DNA from: Bacilli bacterium
GTDB lineage: Bacteria > Bacillota_I > Bacilli_A > RF39 > UBA660
Length of the DNA stretch: 64,000 nt
NCBI GenBank assembly: GCA_017484205.1
Contig: JAFUTO010000018.1
Location: 62,001 to 126,000 of the forward strand
Reading direction: 5' to 3'
In this document: positions 12,320 to 21,084 of the stretch, in pieces
Position numbering within the stretch: the first letter of the stretch is position 1
Layout: every line of letters begins with the position of its first letter
Made by a program: the position numbers and the translations under genes
Notes under the pieces: model-generated
Databases searched by the model: none
Seen by the model: only the letters and a program-made list of their open reading frames with translations
What the model was told of the DNA's origin: nothing

Positions 12320-12353
12320 TATGTGATATATTTAATACATAAGAAATATGTCG

Positions 12354-12384
12354 AAGGAAGTAGTATAAAAGCTACTTCCTTTTT
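12354..12384 (+). terminator. Intrinsic terminator or attenuator hairpin ahead of the ORF6N gene
   Basis: A 10-bp stem AAGGAAGTAG (12354-12363) / CTACTTCCTT (12372-12381), 8-nt loop, then T residues to 12384. It may end the yfhO-like transcript. The ORF6N Shine-Dalgarno AGGAGG begins only five bases later, so any promoter for that gene must lie upstream of the hairpin and be read through it. Confidence 0.7.
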
Positions 12385-12400
12385 GTTTAGGAGGGATTAT

Positions 12401-13642
12401 ATGAATGACATAATATTAAAAGATATAAGTAGTATGATATATGAAGCAAGAAATAAATATGTAATATTAGATAGTGATTTAGCTAAGTTATTTGGAGTGG
12501 AGACTAGAGTATTGAATCAAACTGTTAAAAGAAACTGCGAAAAATTTGATAATAATGTATATTTTCGTATAACTGAGAGTGAATATATAAATTTGAAGTT
12601 GGTATTGTCGACTTCAAGAGATGACTTGAAATCACAATTTGTGACTTCAAGTTTAGAAAATAATTATGGTGGTTCAAGAAAAGGACATACTGTTTTCACC
12701 CGTGAAGGAGTATCTATATTAAGTAGTATTATGAGAAGCGATAGAGTAAAGGAAGTAACAAAAGAAATACTATACGAATTTGATAAGTTAGAGAATGAAA
12801 ATAGTCTTATAATTAAAGGGCATAACATTAAAAGTATGATATATGAAATTAGAGGGAAGCAAGTTATATTAGATAGTGATTTAGCATATTTATATCAGTG
12901 CAAAAATGGTACAAAAGAGATAAATCAAGCTGTAAAAAATAACCTTGATAAATTCCCTTCAAATTATGTTTTTCAGTTAACTAAAGATGAGTGTGAGAGA
13001 CTTTCAAGGTCAAAAGTTTTGACCTTGAACGAAGGAAGAGGACACAATATTAAATATTTACCTTATGTTTTTACTGAACAAGGTGTAGTTATGTTAGCAA
13101 CAATTCTCCATACCAAAATAGCTATAGAAACTAGTATAATGATTATTGATGCTTTTGTTGTGATGAAACATTATTTAACTGAACACGGAGATATATATAA
13201 ATCAATTAATCATCTAAATAACAAAGTTATTGAACATGATGAAAAGATAGATTTATTATTATCTGAATTCAATCCAAAGGAAAGACTTTATCTAGCTGGA
13301 AAAACTTTTGAAGCATATTATGACATTATTGATATTTTCAAAAAAGCAAAAAAGGAGCTGATTATTATAGATGGATATGTTGATAGAAGTATGCTAAACT
13401 ACATTAAAGAAATTAAATCTAATATAATCATTATTACCAAAACAAATAGTAAATTATCTGATTTTGATATTCAAAAATATAATGATGAATACCATAATTT
13501 AAGATTAGTATATAACGATAAAATTCATGATAGATATTTTATTATAGATAAAAAAGATATATATCATTGTGGTACTTCTATAAATAAGCTTGAAGATAAA
13601 TTTATAATAGATACTATACTTAAAGAAATAAAAATAGTTTGA
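12401..13642 (+). CDS. Protein with two ORF6N (KilA-N-like) domains and a PLD-like C-terminal region
   Basis: A 413-residue protein; ATG 12401 follows AGGAGGGATT at ideal spacing. Residues 1-130 and 140-265 are two tandem ORF6N domains: both start with I-MIYE-R-K-VILDSDLA-L, followed by VFTEQGV-ML or VFTREGVSIL. ORF6N domains are DNA-binding modules common in phages, plasmids and mobile elements. Residues about 295-413 (FEAYYDIIDIFKKAKKELIIIDGYVD ... HDRYFIIDKKDIYHCGTSIN) resemble a phospholipase D-like fold with a degenerate H-D/R motif, as seen in proteins fused to ORF6N. It is likely cytoplasmic, with a regulatory, defence or toxin-type role. AT content matches its neighbours, so transfer is not evident. 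Confidence 0.75.
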   Translation: MNDIILKDISSMIYEARNKYVILDSDLAKLFGVETRVLNQTVKRNCEKFDNNVYFRITESEYINLKLVLSTSRDDLKSQFVTSSLENNYGGSRKGHTVFTREGVSILSSIMRSDRVKEVTKEILYEFDKLENENSLIIKGHNIKSMIYEIRGKQVILDSDLAYLYQCKNGTKEINQAVKNNLDKFPSNYVFQLTKDECERLSRSKVLTLNEGRGHNIKYLPYVFTEQGVVMLATILHTKIAIETSIMIIDAFVVMKHYLTEHGDIYKSINHLNNKVIEHDEKIDLLLSEFNPKERLYLAGKTFEAYYDIIDIFKKAKKELIIIDGYVDRSMLNYIKEIKSNIIIITKTNSKLSDFDIQKYNDEYHNLRLVYNDKIHDRYFIIDKKDIYHCGTSINKLEDKFIIDTILKEIKIV

Positions 13643-13910: not shown

Positions 13911-15254
13911 CTATCTTTTTGATAATTCTACTATCTTTTTCCAAAGTAGTGGTCCCACTACACCATTTATATCAAAATCATAATCGTCTTGCAGTTTTTT
14001 AATAGATTTTTCTGTTAATTCGTCAAATACTCCATTAACTCTAACACCTGGAATTGATTTATCAAATTTGCAAATTGCAAGTAAAAATCTTTGTAATCTT
14101 CTTACATCATTACCTGTCATACCTCTAGTTAAGAAATAGTCGGGATATAGTTCACTTACATATTCTTGATATTCTGAAGGAAATGATTTTAAGATATTAT
14201 CATAAGCTCTTTGAAGCACTAACCAATCACTATAAGTGAACACTCCAGTTACTGGTAAATTATATTTTTCTTGGAAAGCTTTTACCATTGTTATAGTATT
14301 ATCATTATAAATAGAATTTGTTGGTAATCGTGGTATATCCTTATCTAGAAAAGCAAGGGCATCTAAAAAGTAATGTACATATTCTACTTCTATTCCTGTA
14401 TCACCATAATTAAGCTCATCAGTATATAAAAATGTTGCTTCATCAAGTGATAAACCTTCAGAGTATAAATCAGATAATTTCTTAACACTAGTATAGACAT
14501 ATTTAATTTTATACCATGTTGCTTTATCAACAACTCCAGTTACTGGAAGTCCAAATATTTCTTGAAACTTTCTCACTGCATTTTCTGTTTCTTGATCATA
14601 AATTCCTAAAGTAGTTGTAATTCCTGGAATAGCAGGATAATTTTGACTAATTCTTCTTAAATCTCTTTGAATAGCTAAAACAGGGTTACCTGCATTACCT
14701 AATCCCACTTCATATCCTGGATAACCACCGGTAGTATCACCTACTGGCGCGTCATATTTAATTGATATATCATTTCCATAATAATATTGTAATATTTGTA
14801 ATGGTGTTTTACCTTGGTTAGCTAAAGATACACTTCCCCATTGTGATAATCCATCACATGTGGTAACCCTTCCATCACAATACCTAGTGAAATACGGCTG
14901 AATTTGGTTTCCTTTAACAACATAGTTATTAAATATTTCACCTACTATATCATTTATGTTTTCATATGTTGATCTATTTTCTATGTAAGTTTGATCATAT
15001 GATGGTGAAGATGTTATATCAAAACTATATCCCTTACTACGATACCATTCATTATATATACGATTCATAGCAAAAGATATAATTGTATAAATATTGGCAA
15101 TTAAAGCATTTCTAGGCCATGTTGGATATAGTTCTGATGATGCAACATTAGCAATATAATCTGTAAATGGTACTGTTATATTTCGTGCAGGTTCATCTGG
15201 CGCGCCTAAATGGACAGTTATATTATTTGGAACAATAGGATACCTAACTGCCAC
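13911..15254 (-). CDS. SpoIID-like N-terminal domain fused to three peptidoglycan-binding repeats
   Basis: A 447-residue protein. Residues 1-175 resemble a reduced SpoIID/LytB-type domain: YTTWPRN-like start PTWPRNALIANIYTI, then YCDGRVTTCDGLSQWGSV, ANQGKTPLQILQYYYG. Three PG_binding_1 repeats follow at about 190-255, 280-350 and 375-440, each with an ItG(V) signature (RKFQEIFGLPVTGVVD; KAFQEKYNLPVTGVFT; KKLQDDYDFDINGVVG). I recall this architecture from clostridial spore-associated peptidoglycan-binding proteins. No signal peptide is visible, consistent with a spore-assembled rather than exported protein. It overlaps the preceding gene by one base (TAATG-type) and forms a three-gene unit with the Ig-like and LysM proteins. 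Confidence 0.75.
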   Translation of the reverse strand: MAVRYPIVPNNITVHLGAPDEPARNITVPFTDYIANVASSELYPTWPRNALIANIYTIISFAMNRIYNEWYRSKGYSFDITSSPSYDQTYIENRSTYENINDIVGEIFNNYVVKGNQIQPYFTRYCDGRVTTCDGLSQWGSVSLANQGKTPLQILQYYYGNDISIKYDAPVGDTTGGYPGYEVGLGNAGNPVLAIQRDLRRISQNYPAIPGITTTLGIYDQETENAVRKFQEIFGLPVTGVVDKATWYKIKYVYTSVKKLSDLYSEGLSLDEATFLYTDELNYGDTGIEVEYVHYFLDALAFLDKDIPRLPTNSIYNDNTITMVKAFQEKYNLPVTGVFTYSDWLVLQRAYDNILKSFPSEYQEYVSELYPDYFLTRGMTGNDVRRLQRFLLAICKFDKSIPGVRVNGVFDELTEKSIKKLQDDYDFDINGVVGPLLWKKIVELSKR

Positions 15255-15673: not shown

Positions 15674-16519
15674 TTATATAATCAACTTTTGACCTACAGA
15701 TAATAAATTAGAAGTTAAATTATTCTTTCTTTTTATATCATCTACTGTGGTATTGAACTTTTTAGCTATTGAATATAGACTTTCCCCACTTTTTACTGTA
15801 TATGTGTTTGTAGTTGATGTACTAGGTATTTTTAAAACTTGACCTATTTGTAAGTTATTATTACTCAAATTATTTATACTTGTTATAGCAGATACTGTCG
15901 TATTATATTGCTTAGCAATACTATATAAACTATCACCTTTTTTAACAGTATAATTTGTAGATGGCGTAGATGTAGTCGGTGGTGTATAATCTGGTCCAAA
16001 ACATTCGTCTTCTACTATATTAGAATCACTAGGTATTCTTATTCTTAAAATTTGACCTATTGTTAAATTATTTCCTTTTATTGAATTATCTTTAACTATC
16101 GTTGTTACATCCACATTATTATTTCTAGCAATTGAATATAATGTGTCACCTTTTTTAACGGTATAATTTATATAGTTTGGAAGTGTCATTTCGTCTTCAG
16201 GGGTATATGTTTCTGGTATTCTAAGTACTTGACCTATTGATAAACTTGTTGTTTTTAAATTATTTAAATTTTTAATTGCATCGACCGTTGTATTGTATTT
16301 TCGAGCTATGCTATATAATGAGTCTCCTTTTTTTACAGTATACATGAACATATTATTAGGATTTGTTCCTGTTTTAGTAGGTATTTTTAAAACTTGACAT
16401 ATTTTTAGTGTATTTGCGTTGACATTATTTAAATTAGCAAGTTCAGTTACGGATACACCAAATTGATTACTTATTCCATATAAAGTATCGCCTGCTTTAA
16501 CAGTATATGTTTGGTTCAT
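15674..16519 (-). CDS. Five-LysM-domain protein, probably spore-associated
   Basis: A 281-residue protein built almost entirely of five LysM peptidoglycan-binding domains, each starting YTVKKGDSLYSIA-like and ending IGQVLKIP-like, separated by short Thr/Ser/Pro linkers. ATG 16519 is chosen because GAGGGGAT stands just upstream; the longer reading frame to 16573 would cover a divergent promoter. There is no signal peptide or TM, resembling SafA-type or other cytosolic spore-coat LysM proteins assembled around the forespore. It lies 9 bp upstream of the Ig-like gene in the same operon. Confidence 0.8.
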   Translation of the reverse strand: MNQTYTVKAGDTLYGISNQFGVSVTELANLNNVNANTLKICQVLKIPTKTGTNPNNMFMYTVKKGDSLYSIARKYNTTVDAIKNLNNLKTTSLSIGQVLRIPETYTPEDEMTLPNYINYTVKKGDTLYSIARNNNVDVTTIVKDNSIKGNNLTIGQILRIRIPSDSNIVEDECFGPDYTPPTTSTPSTNYTVKKGDSLYSIAKQYNTTVSAITSINNLSNNNLQIGQVLKIPSTSTTNTYTVKSGESLYSIAKKFNTTVDDIKRKNNLTSNLLSVGQKLII

Positions 16520-16566
16520 ATTTATCCCCTCGATAAAGTATATGAAATTCATCATAAATAGTGACT

Positions 16567-16594
16567 TTGACATTTAGGCAAAAATATGTATAAT
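16567..16594 (+). promoter_or_regulatory. Promoter for the possible ATP-grasp gene
   Basis: TTGACA (16567-16572), 16-bp spacer, TATAAT (16589-16594). Consensus on both boxes; GGGGGAT and ATG 16619 follow. Confidence 0.85.
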
Positions 16595-16618: not shown

Positions 16619-17722
16619 ATGTTAAAATCAGGGGTTATAAAAAATGAACAGATTATCAAATTAAAAGATAATGAAATAATTTACTTTTTAACAAATGAAC
16701 TTGATAGTTTGAACGATGATGAAAAAACAAGCTATGATATGTATAAAAATTCAAAGTTTTATCTAAGTGATGATACTATTATTGAATATTTTGTAAAATT
16801 TCATAATTATATAGTCGTTTATAATAATAAAGTTTTTTATGCTAAAGTAGATGATAATTTTGATAGGATAGGATATATCAAAGAAGGTTTTAGTTTGAAT
16901 AAACTATCTAATATGATTTATAAAGATGGTAAAAACAAAGTGGATAAAAGTGAAATAGACATTAAGATTGAGGAAGATGCGATTATGCATGGTGAAAGTG
17001 AAGAAAATGACTTATCATTTTGGTATCCTAAAACTAATAATATAGGTTTCAAATGTCCTAAAACATTAATTACTAAATTTACTGATAATGAGGTTAATTT
17101 AATACGATGTAATAATTTTAGAAGTTTAGATAAAGATGATATTTTAGATAGAATCATGAAAGAAAATAGTGAAGTTGATTTGAAAAATGAGTTATTTGTT
17201 AGATTAGGTATGGGAAGTAATAAATTTCATTTTGATTCATGTCATTTAACTAACATTGATGAATTATATCCAAAACTATTAAGTATATTGGAAGATATGT
17301 ATTTTAGGCTTGAATGGCATGATAAAATAAATCTAGTTTTAAGAGAGTTTATTAAAACTAATTATAAAAGGAATACTATCTATGATGGGTTAGCTTTAAA
17401 TACAGAATTTAGAGTATTCTATGATTTTGATAAAAATGAGGTTTTAGGTATTTATAATTATTGGGATAAAAATACGATGTTAGATAATTTAAAATATCCT
17501 GTTGATCTAATAAACTTTGCTGATACAACAGAAGAAATAGAAAAAGATTTTAATAGATTAAGTCCTAGACTAAATGATGAAGTTAATAGTAAAATGCCAA
17601 ATGCAAATTTAAATGGTAAATGGTCTATTGATTTTATGTATGATGGTAATGAATTTGTATTAATAGATATGGCTCATGCAGAGTGTAGTTATTACTATGA
17701 TAAAGTATTAAAAAAGCATTGA
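16619..17722 (+). CDS. Possible ATP-grasp (CDC123/D123-like) protein
   Basis: A 367-residue soluble protein of uncertain family. The C-terminal half has a pattern reminiscent of ATP-grasp enzymes of the D123 kind: LNTEFRVFYDFDKNEVLGIY, then WSIDFMYDGNEFVLIDMAHAE, i.e. strand E-F-R, later D-F and a second acidic strand ID-M-A with a carboxylate-rich ATP/Mg-binding appearance. The N-terminal third is Lys/Asp-rich and shows no motif. Start ATG 16619 has Shine-Dalgarno GGGGGAT. It is transcribed divergently from the LysM gene with its own promoter and terminator. Substrate unknown. Confidence 0.55.
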   Translation: MLKSGVIKNEQIIKLKDNEIIYFLTNELDSLNDDEKTSYDMYKNSKFYLSDDTIIEYFVKFHNYIVVYNNKVFYAKVDDNFDRIGYIKEGFSLNKLSNMIYKDGKNKVDKSEIDIKIEEDAIMHGESEENDLSFWYPKTNNIGFKCPKTLITKFTDNEVNLIRCNNFRSLDKDDILDRIMKENSEVDLKNELFVRLGMGSNKFHFDSCHLTNIDELYPKLLSILEDMYFRLEWHDKINLVLREFIKTNYKRNTIYDGLALNTEFRVFYDFDKNEVLGIYNYWDKNTMLDNLKYPVDLINFADTTEEIEKDFNRLSPRLNDEVNSKMPNANLNGKWSIDFMYDGNEFVLIDMAHAECSYYYDKVLKKH

Positions 17723-17742
17723 TTAAATAATCAATGTTTTTT
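17717..17742 (+). terminator. Bidirectional intrinsic terminator between convergent genes
   Basis: Stem CATTGATT/AATCAATG (17717-17724, 17729-17736) with AAAT loop, T6 on the plus side and, on the other strand, CT6 as well. It overlaps the last codons of both convergent genes. Confidence 0.8.
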
Positions 17743-18657
17743 AATGATGTATGATTTAAGTTTTTCATTCTCTCTTAATTTCTTTATAGCTTTTTTCTTA
17801 ATTTTAGATATTTTGTCAGGATTAACTCCTAAATATTCACTTATTTCATTATATGTTAAAACAGTATTTCCTGAAGCGTCAAATAGTAACCCCATAACAT
17901 TTTTAGCTTCATCGTCTAAATTATTAAGCGCTTCTTTATAATCATACATAAATTCATTTGATGAAATATCTTTGATATAATCAACATCATATGATTCATC
18001 TTTCATGCGATAAAATATTTTAGATGGAGGTTCTACTTCTTCTTTATCATAATCAAATGATAATTCTTTTCCTTTTTTAATTGAAAAAACATCCATTTCA
18101 CATTCTGGAATATCAAATATTATTCTATATGCCTCTCTGTATGATATATGTTCCCATCTAGCTACATATTTTATAATATTTCTTTCTATACATTTTTCTA
18201 TATAAAATTTAAAAGTAGGTTTTTCATTATGAGTATTATATTTAACAGCGTTCATAAGCGCTTCTAAACATACATAATATATTTTTTCCATAGGAATTTT
18301 ACCATTAAAAAAATTATACCAATTTCTTGTTTCGTCAAATACTACGCCTAAACAACCTTCAATGACTTTTCTTTGTGATTCTTTACTTAAACGTGTTTTT
18401 GAAGGATATGGTATTTTTTCGTGTAACTTACGCTCTTTTTCAATAACATCACAAAGTTCTCGATTTCCAAACATAGCTGCTAATAACCTATCTTCTGCAG
18501 AAAACGAAGATTTTGTCTTTTCATAATACTTATCTACTTCTTCAAAGTATTGCTTTAGTGTTGCACCTTCACCACGATAAATTTCTATTATTTCTTCTTC
18601 ACTTAAGCAAAAAGAATTATTTTTCCAATCTAGTTCTATCATATCTAAGTCAAACAT
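17731..18657 (-). CDS. Divergent sigma-70-family RNA polymerase sigma factor
   Basis: A 308-residue protein. Residues about 118-170 resemble sigma region 2 (MEKIYYVCLEALMNAVKYN ... FKFYIEKCIERNIIKYVARW), and residues about 242-298 are a region 4 helix-turn-helix (ALNNLDDEAKNVMGLLF ... LTYNEISEYLGVNPDKISKIKKKAIKKLRENEK). There is an unusual N-terminal extension of about 115 residues with a YEKTKSSFSAEDRLLAAMFG segment and an acidic linker between regions 2 and 4. It is not a clear match to SigA, SigE, SigF, SigG or SigK. Shine-Dalgarno AGGGGGAT supports the start. It lies among spore-related genes (LysM cluster, gpr, spoIID), so a developmental role is plausible. Confidence 0.65.
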   Translation of the reverse strand: MFDLDMIELDWKNNSFCLSEEEIIEIYRGEGATLKQYFEEVDKYYEKTKSSFSAEDRLLAAMFGNRELCDVIEKERKLHEKIPYPSKTRLSKESQRKVIEGCLGVVFDETRNWYNFFNGKIPMEKIYYVCLEALMNAVKYNTHNEKPTFKFYIEKCIERNIIKYVARWEHISYREAYRIIFDIPECEMDVFSIKKGKELSFDYDKEEVEPPSKIFYRMKDESYDVDYIKDISSNEFMYDYKEALNNLDDEAKNVMGLLFDASGNTVLTYNEISEYLGVNPDKISKIKKKAIKKLRENEKLKSYIIKKH

Positions 18658-18684: not shown

Positions 18685-18713
18685 ATTATAACATAATTTC
18701 TTGCATTTTAAAA
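18685..18713 (-). promoter_or_regulatory. Possible promoter of the sigma-factor gene
   Basis: Minus-strand TATAAT at 18685-18690 with a weak -35 (TTTTAA, 18708-18713) 17 bp upstream, immediately after the tRNA terminator. Confidence 0.45.
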
Positions 18714-18736
18714 CTCGAAACTTTAAAAGTTCGAGT
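18713..18736 (-). terminator. Terminator of the tRNA-Gln/tRNA-Thr transcript
   Basis: Minus-strand hairpin ACTCGAA...TTCGAGT extended by CTTT/AAAG (18713-18736), followed by TTTTAAAAT. It lies 12 bp beyond the CCA end of tRNA-Thr. Confidence 0.7.
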
Positions 18737-18747
18737 AAAAATCAATC

Positions 18748-18823
18748 TGGTGCCGACTGAGGGATTCGAACCTCCGACCTACGCGTTACGAATGCGTTGC
18801 TCTACCAGCTAAGCTAAGTCGGC
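18748..18823 (-). tRNA. tRNA-Thr (CGU anticodon)
   Basis: A full cloverleaf on the minus strand, with acceptor GCCGACT pairing AGTCGGC, D arm GCTTAGCTGGTAGAGC, T arm GGAGGTTCGAATCCCTC and an encoded CCA. The anticodon loop TTCGTAA gives anticodon CGU, reading ACG (Thr). The innermost anticodon-stem pair is A-C. It is the second tRNA of the pair, 4 bp after tRNA-Gln. Confidence 0.93.
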
Positions 18824-18827
18824 TTAT

Positions 18828-18901
18828 TGGCTACCCCAGTTAGATTCGAACTAACGATCTCAGAGTCAGAGTCTGATGCCTTACCGCTTGGCCATGGGGT
18901 A
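18828..18901 (-). tRNA. tRNA-Gln (CUG anticodon)
   Basis: A minus-strand cloverleaf with acceptor TACCCCA/TGGGGTA and the U1-A72 pair typical of tRNA-Gln, discriminator G, encoded CCA, anticodon stem TCAGA/TCTGA and loop CTCTGAC, giving CUG. CUG reads CAG only, so a UUG species is expected elsewhere. Confidence 0.9.
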
Positions 18902-18991: not shown

Positions 18992-19717
18992 ATGGAAATT
19001 TATTCTAATAAAACAGACTTAATAATAGAAAAAAACAAAATAAACACTAATAATAATGATGTTGAAACTATAACTTATGAAGATAATGATAAGATATATA
19101 AAACTATATATTTTAATGATATTAATAAAGTTAAAAATGTTTTAAAAAATGAATTACTATATTTTTTTAAGGAATTAAATATTAAAAAAGGATCTCATAT
19201 ATTCATTATAGGTATTGGTAATGATAACTATACTGCAGATTCAGTGGGACCTAAAACTTTAAAACATGTTAAAGTAAATTCATTTTTAGAAAATTTTGGA
19301 ATTAAAAAAGAAGAAACGATAGTATCTTCTTTAGAACCTGGTGTATTAGGAGAAACAGGAATATTAACAGAAAAAATTATTAAAAGTGTATCTAATGAAA
19401 TTAAACCAGATTTAATCATATTAATTGATTCTTTTGTAAGTAGTAATATTGATTATTTAAATAAAACTATTGAAATAACTAATAGTGGTATTAGTACAGG
19501 TACTGGTATCAAAGGTATTAATTCTAATATTGATGAAACTTTGTTAGGTATACCTATTATATCAATTGGTGTTACTACAGCTTTAGAAATAAAATTTTCT
19601 AATAAAAATATTAATTATATACCTTATATATTATCGACTAAAGATGTTGATACTTATATAGATAAAATATCTAGAATTATTGGATATTCATTAAATGAAG
19701 TTATAAATGGCTTATAG
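18992..19717 (+). CDS. gpr: Short GPR-family spore germination protease
   Basis: A 241-residue protein clearly related to GPR, the aspartic-type endopeptidase that degrades small acid-soluble spore proteins at germination. Matches to Bacillus GPR: SNKTDLIIE (N-terminal YxxRTDL-like motif), IIGIGNDNYTADSVGPK (Asp 83 aligned with a catalytic Asp), SSLEPGVLGETGILT, LIILIDSFVS (Asp 146 aligned with the second catalytic Asp) and TNSGISTGTGIKG. Bacillus GPR has about 370 residues; the C-terminal third is missing here, as is the longer propeptide. GGTGAT precedes the ATG. It converges on and overlaps the spoIID-like gene by 17 bp. Confidence 0.85.
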   Translation: MEIYSNKTDLIIEKNKINTNNNDVETITYEDNDKIYKTIYFNDINKVKNVLKNELLYFFKELNIKKGSHIFIIGIGNDNYTADSVGPKTLKHVKVNSFLENFGIKKEETIVSSLEPGVLGETGILTEKIIKSVSNEIKPDLIILIDSFVSSNIDYLNKTIEITNSGISTGTGIKGINSNIDETLLGIPIISIGVTTALEIKFSNKNINYIPYILSTKDVDTYIDKISRIIGYSLNEVINGL

Positions 19718-21017
19718 ATACTCCAGTATAATAATGTTTTAATATTTGTTCATAATTATATCCTGCTTTTGCCATTCCATTAGCGCCATATTGACTCATA
19801 CCTACACCATGACCATACCCTCTTGTTGTAAAGATAACTCCAGTATCCGTTTTTTCAATATCAAAATCAGCAGACCTAAGTCCTAATAAATTTCTAAATT
19901 CAACACCTTTATATATTTTTCCATTTACTTCAATAGCTGCTATTCTATTACCTGTAGTTTTATTTAGAATATTAAATTCAGTATCTATAGTAACTTCCAT
20001 TTTAAGTTTAGATGATAATTCACTATATGAAATTGCAACACTTTTAATAAATGAAGGATTACTATCATCATAGGTACTTTCAACACTGACTAAGTATGGA
20101 TAACTATTGCCCCATACATTTGAAGAATCTTCAGTTCTACCATTACTAGTTGAATGATATAATGCTTCTATATAAGTACCATTATAAGTTAAATACATAC
20201 CTTTTGTTTTTTCTACAGCATTTTTTACTTTATTATAATAAGTACTATAACTAGATCCCCATATATTTTTTAATTGCTCGATATCTTTATAATTTTGAGT
20301 ACTTGAAGTATCTGTTAAAGTTCTTCCAGTTGAAATAGATTTTAATGCGTAAGTGCGAGCTACTATAGCTTGGGCTTTTAAAGCTTCTTCATTAAAAGCA
20401 GCTGGCATCTCCGCACCTACAACACCTATTATATATTCTTCAAGTTCTAAAGTTATTATACTACCATTACTTCTATGGATTGTAACGTAAGTATTAGTAT
20501 CTACAATAGGTGTTTTCACCTCTTCTTTTAATTCTTCTACTATAGGTGTTGGTATTACTTGTTTTGTCTCAGTTTTAGAAGTTTCTTTTGTTGGTACTTT
20601 TACCTCTATTTTTATATCATCTTTAGTGTCTTTTTCTACCTTTCCTTGAACTTGAACAGTTTCATTAGGTTCTTCTTTTTCTACAGTTTTTATTTCTAGT
20701 CCATCTACATTTAAAACAATATCTTGGGTTGGAATTTTACTTGGCATTACCTCTACAATATTATTAGGATTTTCAACTGGTGTTGTATCTATGTTATTAT
20801 TAAGTGCAATATTGCCTGCAAGCATTCCCCCTACAACTAAAGCAACGGTAGTACCAGTAAAAGCTATTTTATTATCTTCTATAAATTTTTTAACTACTTG
20901 TTCTATCTTTTTACCTTGTTCTTTAAAATTAAGTTTTGCAAATTCACTATCTATATCAAGATATAAATATAGTACCTCTTCACCATTTTGTTTTTTTATT
21001 TCATAACTAGTAATCAT
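19701..21017 (-). CDS. SpoIID/LytB-domain protein with N-terminal cytoplasmic segment
   Basis: A 438-residue protein. ATG 21017 (Shine-Dalgarno GGTGAT) is preferred to TTG 21062, which lies within a promoter-like box. Residues 1-50 are cytoplasmic, about 51-71 form a TM, 75-175 are a Val/Glu/Lys/Pro/Thr-rich linker, and about 180-438 a SpoIID domain: EYIIGVVGAEMPAAFNEEAL, ALYHSTSNGRTEDSSNVWG, YGHGVGMSQYGANGMAKAGY. SpoIID is the lytic transglycosylase that thins septal peptidoglycan during engulfment. The domain is complete with the family's catalytic Glu region (VGAEMP). The long anchor and linker are unlike the short Bacillus SpoIID N-terminus. Confidence 0.85.
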   Translation of the reverse strand: MITSYEIKKQNGEEVLYLYLDIDSEFAKLNFKEQGKKIEQVVKKFIEDNKIAFTGTTVALVVGGMLAGNIALNNNIDTTPVENPNNIVEVMPSKIPTQDIVLNVDGLEIKTVEKEEPNETVQVQGKVEKDTKDDIKIEVKVPTKETSKTETKQVIPTPIVEELKEEVKTPIVDTNTYVTIHRSNGSIITLELEEYIIGVVGAEMPAAFNEEALKAQAIVARTYALKSISTGRTLTDTSSTQNYKDIEQLKNIWGSSYSTYYNKVKNAVEKTKGMYLTYNGTYIEALYHSTSNGRTEDSSNVWGNSYPYLVSVESTYDDSNPSFIKSVAISYSELSSKLKMEVTIDTEFNILNKTTGNRIAAIEVNGKIYKGVEFRNLLGLRSADFDIEKTDTGVIFTTRGYGHGVGMSQYGANGMAKAGYNYEQILKHYYTGVSISHL

Positions 21018-21053
21018 ATCATCACCAGTATTAGTCTTTACATTGATTTTAAG

Positions 21054-21059
21054 ATTATA
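21054..21059 (-). promoter_or_regulatory. Possible -10 box of the spoIID-like gene
   Basis: Minus-strand TATAAT at 21054-21059, preceded by TTTTG, directly after the tRNA-Ala terminator. No good -35 is visible; read-through from the tRNA is an alternative source of transcripts. Confidence 0.35.
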
Positions 21060-21060
21060 C

Positions 21061-21084
21061 AAAATAAAAACCCTTAAAAGGGTT
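21061..21084 (-). terminator. Terminator of tRNA-Ala
   Basis: Minus-strand stem AACCCTT/AAGGGTT (21069-21084) with a tiny loop, followed by TTTTTATTTT. It lies 11 bp beyond the CCA end. Confidence 0.75.

Follow-up and report, generated by a model that had tools for sequence, protein, structure and literature searches.

The gene at 17731..18657 (−) of the window, by which we mean the whole stretch of 64,000 nucleotides analysed here, encodes a divergent sigma-70-type protein of 308 aa, and we give a probability of roughly 0.6 to its being an alternative sigma factor that is functional though divergent and that represents the short form in a group restricted to one lineage. The gene was defined by its open reading frame, which has an ATG start, by matches to the NCBIfam model TIGR02937 and the Pfam model Sigma70_r4, and by three orthologues. 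Most likely, the product is a working accessory alternative sigma with an N-terminal control domain of its own. The group is a narrow and new sigma-factor variant; no account recognisable as this group was found in the literature, as far as titles and the openings of abstracts show.

The protein is of the sigma-70 type: sequence profiles identified the homology to both region 2 (residues ~90-166, 18160..18390 (−)) and region 4 (residues ~236-300, 17758..17952 (−)) that characterises this family, and domain-level structure matches support both. Region 4, which the initial annotation had called convincing, gave a Sigma70_r4 match of 3.3e-8 and 33.4 bits (cut-off 24.1), and the model matched all four short members of the group. 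TIGR02937 spans residues 117-296 with 46.6 bits (cut-off 42.9). Pfam gave no match to region 2 in any of the four short members; Sigma70_r2 matches all six long relatives tested, three of them over the cut-off, and a region-2 profile from eight group members matched canonical sigmas at up to 7.9e-14. The structure model, which is of low confidence (pLDDT 51.6) because it was built from an alignment of two sequences, has its helices placed as expected, and the 30 Foldseek matches of this weak model at E <= 0.001 are sigma subunits by chain and title. With VIA-align, model residues 90-169 were aligned to 8b3z ("SigE N-terminal Domain") with Z 8.3 and 2.8 A over 76 residues, a Z of about 8 by itself not being strong evidence for helical domains, and residues 231-298 to the SigF chain 8jzt_C with 1.9 A over 63 residues. 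The region 2 earlier described as recognisable is thus borne out by TIGR02937, by Sigma70_r2 in the long relatives and by the 8b3z match.

Between the two regions lies a 69-residue linker (17953..18159 (−)) in which region 3 is not recognised, Pfam having found no Sigma70_r3 match in the four short members, the window protein included. The linker had been reported as acidic, which is mildly so in the window protein (18 D/E and 11 K/R of 69), but does not extend to all orthologues (11 D/E and 14 K/R in G145); the more acidic part is residues 1-47, with 13 D/E versus 5 K/R. These residues begin the N-terminal domain (residues 1-89, 18391..18657 (−)), which is common to the long relatives, and a motif near LSxEEIxxxYxxxG is found in it in both short and long forms. 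An unfamiliar N-terminus of 115 residues had been proposed initially; the extension is real, but nearer 89 residues. Invariant positions in the short form amount to 18/47 in residues 1-47, 5/42 in residues 48-89, 22/77 in region 2, 8/69 in the linker and 14/65 in region 4. Since residues 1-47, the best-conserved part of the short form, have a larger invariant share than region 2 or region 4, this stretch is, judged by conservation, no loose tail. Primary sigmas carry region 1.1, region 1.2 and a non-conserved region ahead of region 2, and the group resembles them in that the N-terminal sequence preceding region 2 varies in length. It differs from them in that the N-terminal domain lacks profile similarity to region 1.2: set against 46 stretches of sigmas of 200-270 residues and 8 of SigA-like sigmas in a profile-profile comparison, it matched none of them (probability under 1%), and this identity was rejected. 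The domain has no usable structure model, and missing fold matches are uninformative.

Members of the group and their place among sigma factors

With residues 1-230 as query, the 386 genomes of the same family yielded three full-length orthologues, 48-53% identical (G344, G145 and G408). Several of the weak matches of this search (E 1e-5 to 0.1) are long members; others, many of them in long frames and none matching the full profile, were taken as chance. A profile covering the N-terminal domain and region 2, built from 10 sequences of the group members themselves, detected members in 10 of the 386 family genomes at E <= 1.2e-39, with the next match at 1.5e-15, and such matches cover region 2 only or little more. 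Among 98 relatives, the window copy was the sole full-length one among the matches listed, and the other matches listed fall in the region-4 end. A class sample of 395 genomes contained members in the window genome (G000) and in G150, both of the window's family, and no member outside that taxonomic family, the best non-member among the matches listed being at 5.2e-12; both sets are samples from larger groups. From these searches, the group appears narrow, lineage-restricted and sporadic in one lineage of uncultured Bacilli.

The short form (304-310 aa) is found in the window, G145, G344 and G408, and the long form in six genomes (G150, G213, G340, G267, G369 and G347). Four long members have both regions inside the ORF, and in these the gap between region 2 and region 4, where the short form has its linker, is 344-470 residues. 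The G150 insert is related to that of G213 (26-27% over about 305 residues, E 1e-18 to 1.6e-20), and for the other inserts no clear similarity was seen. In G347 the ORF runs off the contig end and region 4 is not seen, the G369 copy is broken, with region 4 in another frame and containing a stop, and G166 has a C-terminal fragment alone of a short-type copy. Where sigma factors carry additional sequence, it is mainly terminal or placed between regions 1.2 and 2.1. What surprises more about the group is its long members, in which a large insert parts the two domains that read DNA: hundreds of residues separate regions 2 and 4, and insert-free sisters carry the same N-terminal domain. The group would offer a way to test how much uncoupling the two DNA-reading domains tolerate and whether a sigma factor can contain its own control.

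A tree of regions 2 and 4 was calculated with 90 rows (of 94 found, four duplicate or contig-cut ones were dropped; G347 and G369 were not included), in which UFBoot support was 100 for the eight members, 100 for the four short and 95 for the four long ones. The sister of the group in this tree, at a support of just 68, is a SigE/K-like protein of 185 residues from the window genome (L105, G000:C13, about 60002), itself under all specific cut-offs. In a mixture-model tree of 68 rows, with SigE-like rows thinned to every third, the group forms a clade (99/96) outside the F/G (99/100), K (100/98) and E (96/93) clades, a placement to be read with caution in view of long branches, the group stem having 2.1 changes per column. 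The phylogeny with sigma-70 families that had been suggested as a check thus gives the group a clade of its own, not inside any standard sigma clade sampled.

The claim that the protein is no standard sporulation sigma is likewise supported. A SigE, SigF, SigG or SigK diverged beyond recognition might be considered, as SigE models are the best profile matches after TIGR02937 and region 2 resembles SigE. However, the NCBIfam scores lie far under the cut-offs (SigE 34.6 versus 339, SigK 20.6 versus 298.65, SigG 16.0 versus 372 and SigBFG 23.0 versus 234.35 bits), separate SigE, SigK, SigF and SigG genes exist in the same genome, and the group falls outside their clades. This explanation was rejected on the genome's own genes and the tree placement, and we regard its probability as negligible. 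By best NCBIfam match, the other sigmas of the genome are SigA, a second RpoD-like sigma, SigK, SigE, SigG and SigF, with SigK over its subfamily cut-off, SigE and SigG slightly under theirs and SigF well under. Given that the genome already has SigA, SigF, SigE, SigG and SigK, the standard spore cascade is present and the divergent sigma is extra to it, which suggests that small-genome uncultured Bacilli retain accessory sigmas beyond the spore cascade. The second RpoD-like sigma (L096, G000:C11, about 18110) belongs to an open frame about 1,000 residues long, where the sigma core (~205-475) is followed by a long C-terminal part with repeated stretches.

The likeness to SigE and SigK comprises the sequence of regions 2 and 4, the domain fold, the next-best profile matches and a YxxKCIEN-like region 2 stretch in the long form. 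The group is set apart from them by its N-terminal domain, an altered region 2.2 motif, a longer linker (69 residues versus 49 in the genome's own SigE), the lack of an adjoining processing partner and the low model scores. The domain layout (regions 2 and 4, region 3 unrecognised, TIGR02937 over cut-off) is also that of ECF-type sigmas, a likeness of layout, whereas the window protein has an N-terminal domain and the cognate anti-sigma gene expected alongside an ECF gene was not found.

Transcription unit and genomic site

Upstream of the sigma gene lie a tRNA-Thr(cgt) and tRNA-Gln(ctg) pair (18748..18901 (−)) and, behind it, a terminator-like hairpin (18710..18739 (−)), with counterparts in G145 and G262; downstream, a convergent gene stops 9 bases from the end of the sigma gene. 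Because of this arrangement, the gene most likely forms a solitary, single-gene transcription unit. A putative extended -10 promoter of the TGnTATAAT type is located at 18685..18693 (−), and each of the four short genes carries, at <=75 bases from the start, a -10-like site whose extended position is TG; these sites read TGTTATAAT for the window and G408, TGATAAAAT for G145 and TGATATTAT for G344. By its sequence, the gene's own promoter would be sigma-A-like.

The neighbours of the sigma gene differ among the four short-form genomes. The window and G145 have a common terminator and promoter block behind the tRNA-Gln pair, and in G262 a similar block is ahead of a different gene. In the genus g138, the stretch between tRNA-Gln/tRNA-Glu and PAP2 is occupied by the sigma gene in G145 and by an acetyltransferase-like gene (by eye) in G262, and is empty in G409; G344 has no sigma trace there, its copy being located elsewhere. 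The cargo behind the tRNA-Gln/tRNA-Glu pair differs among four genomes of one genus (L178, L177, L067 and L176). The gene appears to be an accessory one in a variable location, its accessory status following from its absence from nearly all relatives and from the decayed copies; the broken long copy in G369 and the short-type fragment in G166 indicate that it is dispensable in places.

Such a site, behind a tRNA pair and variable in g138, would also suit a stranded sigma of a phage or mobile element that once redirected or blocked a host programme such as sporulation. Weak PHROG sigma matches (phrog_351, 1.8e-8) and the phage-like character of nearby genes point in the same direction, and phage sigmas that alter sporulation give a precedent (PMC9429907). 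Against it, no relative was found in 50,697 phage records or 72,556 plasmid records, nor in short-peptide scans of IMG/VR, limited in reach, that took the short form, its alignment and two long forms as queries. Next to the sigma gene, neither an integrase nor a structural phage gene was noticed. The sigmas of Herelleviridae phages are similar in being large accessory sigmas with a SigE-like region 2 (phrog_351 and phrog_1740 being weak matches), but the two examined have regions 2 and 4 ordinarily spaced and carry their extra sequence as a C-terminal tail. The base composition of the gene (G+C 26.1%, third positions 13.6%, versus 29.2% for the window) does not indicate foreign origin. Overall, we consider a mobile-element origin of this kind unlikely. 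The convergent gene at 16619-17722 encodes a 367-aa protein akin to hypothetical proteins from phages, SPbeta-like ones among them, and the gene at 12323-13642 one with two domains of ORF6N, a family of phage-type regulators.

The gene had been described as sitting among spore genes, and in location this is correct: nearby are a protein with five LysM repeats (15674-16573), a germination protease (18992-19717), a SpoIID protein (19701-21062) and, at 13911-15254, a peptidoglycan-binding protein whose SpoIID match is borderline. Judged by position, however, all of them are probably in transcription units separate from the sigma gene. The germination protease has just 241 residues, and matching open frames in 12 relatives have 254-387. 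A shared non-sigma-A motif upstream of the spore-type genes of the window, for which a search had been suggested as a check, was not found with simple patterns. Patterns for the SigE, SigK, SigG and SigA consensus sequences gave only raw isolated matches upstream of ten start sites in the window, which are no basis for a regulon. The idea of a distinct developmental or surface regulon therefore finds no support, considering the sigma-A-like promoter, the differing neighbours, the accessory distribution and the lack of a shared motif and of an adjoining anti-sigma gene.

Polymerase contact and possible modes of control

In E. coli sigma-70, the D-L-x-Q-E-type stretch of region 2.2 contacts the beta-prime clamp helices, and the D, Q and E of this motif face the core polymerase in canonical sigmas. 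The window protein has EKIYYVCLEAL at this clamp-facing stretch, and the short members K/D-I/L-Y-Y/F-V/I-C-L-E-x-L, with K or D in place of D, Y or F in place of Q, and V or I in place of E. As the alteration is conserved across the short clade, the polymerase contact would be either changed or lost. Some residues of the -35 recognition helix also vary among the four short orthologues, and both features would count against the reading as a working sigma. The conserved alteration and the long stem branch of the group would also agree with a sigma descendant unable to initiate transcription, which would act as regulator or decoy by binding RNA polymerase or promoter DNA. Yet regions 2 and 4 are both kept conserved together, and most of the long sisters have a more canonical motif at the same stretch (D-D/E-L/I-F-Q or a near variant, that is, near DD-x-FQ), so that we consider this alternative improbable.

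Partner switching of the SigB/SigF type, with a stress sigma controlled by a STAS protein and a phosphatase with a kinase-like anti-sigma domain, was suggested by G408, where the sigma gene is followed by one other gene and then by a STAS-kinase fusion and a protein of the PP2C type whose C-terminal part is ATPase-like (partly by eye). Of 30 genomes tested, only G408 and G139 have the PP2C protein; the G139 genome has the STAS and PP2C genes together and no group member, and G000, G145 and G344 have no PP2C gene. Since the genes do not co-occur, this mode was rejected; it is nearly refuted by the PP2C distribution and very improbable.

For the accessory alternative sigma that we favour, the sigma-A enzyme would make the protein in growing cells; its regions 2 and 4 would bind core RNA polymerase and redirect it to a small set of promoters, and its activity may be held or tuned by its own N-terminal domain. 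Such self-control is proposed by exclusion, as no anti-sigma gene travels with the sigma gene: in the window it is enclosed by the tRNAs upstream and the convergent gene downstream, none adjoins it, and the neighbours differ in the four genomes. More tentatively, and on balance doubtfully, the whole group may have built-in control, in which the N-terminal domain, together with the 344-470-residue insert in long members, would act as an internal sensor or lock in place of a separate anti-sigma.

The window genome comprises 1.27 Mb in 34 contigs. In its sigF operon (L070:2753-5613, G000:C33), no separate spoIIAB ORF was recognised by eye, and the operon of G344 looks alike; a 2024 study of the uncultured order RF39 describes spoIIAB and spoIIE as reduced in presence or absent (PMC10868615). 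On this likeness, the window genome probably belongs to RF39. Its sigF operon has a STAS (spoIIAA-like) gene next to sigF, as well as spoVAC/AD/AE-like genes (by eye).
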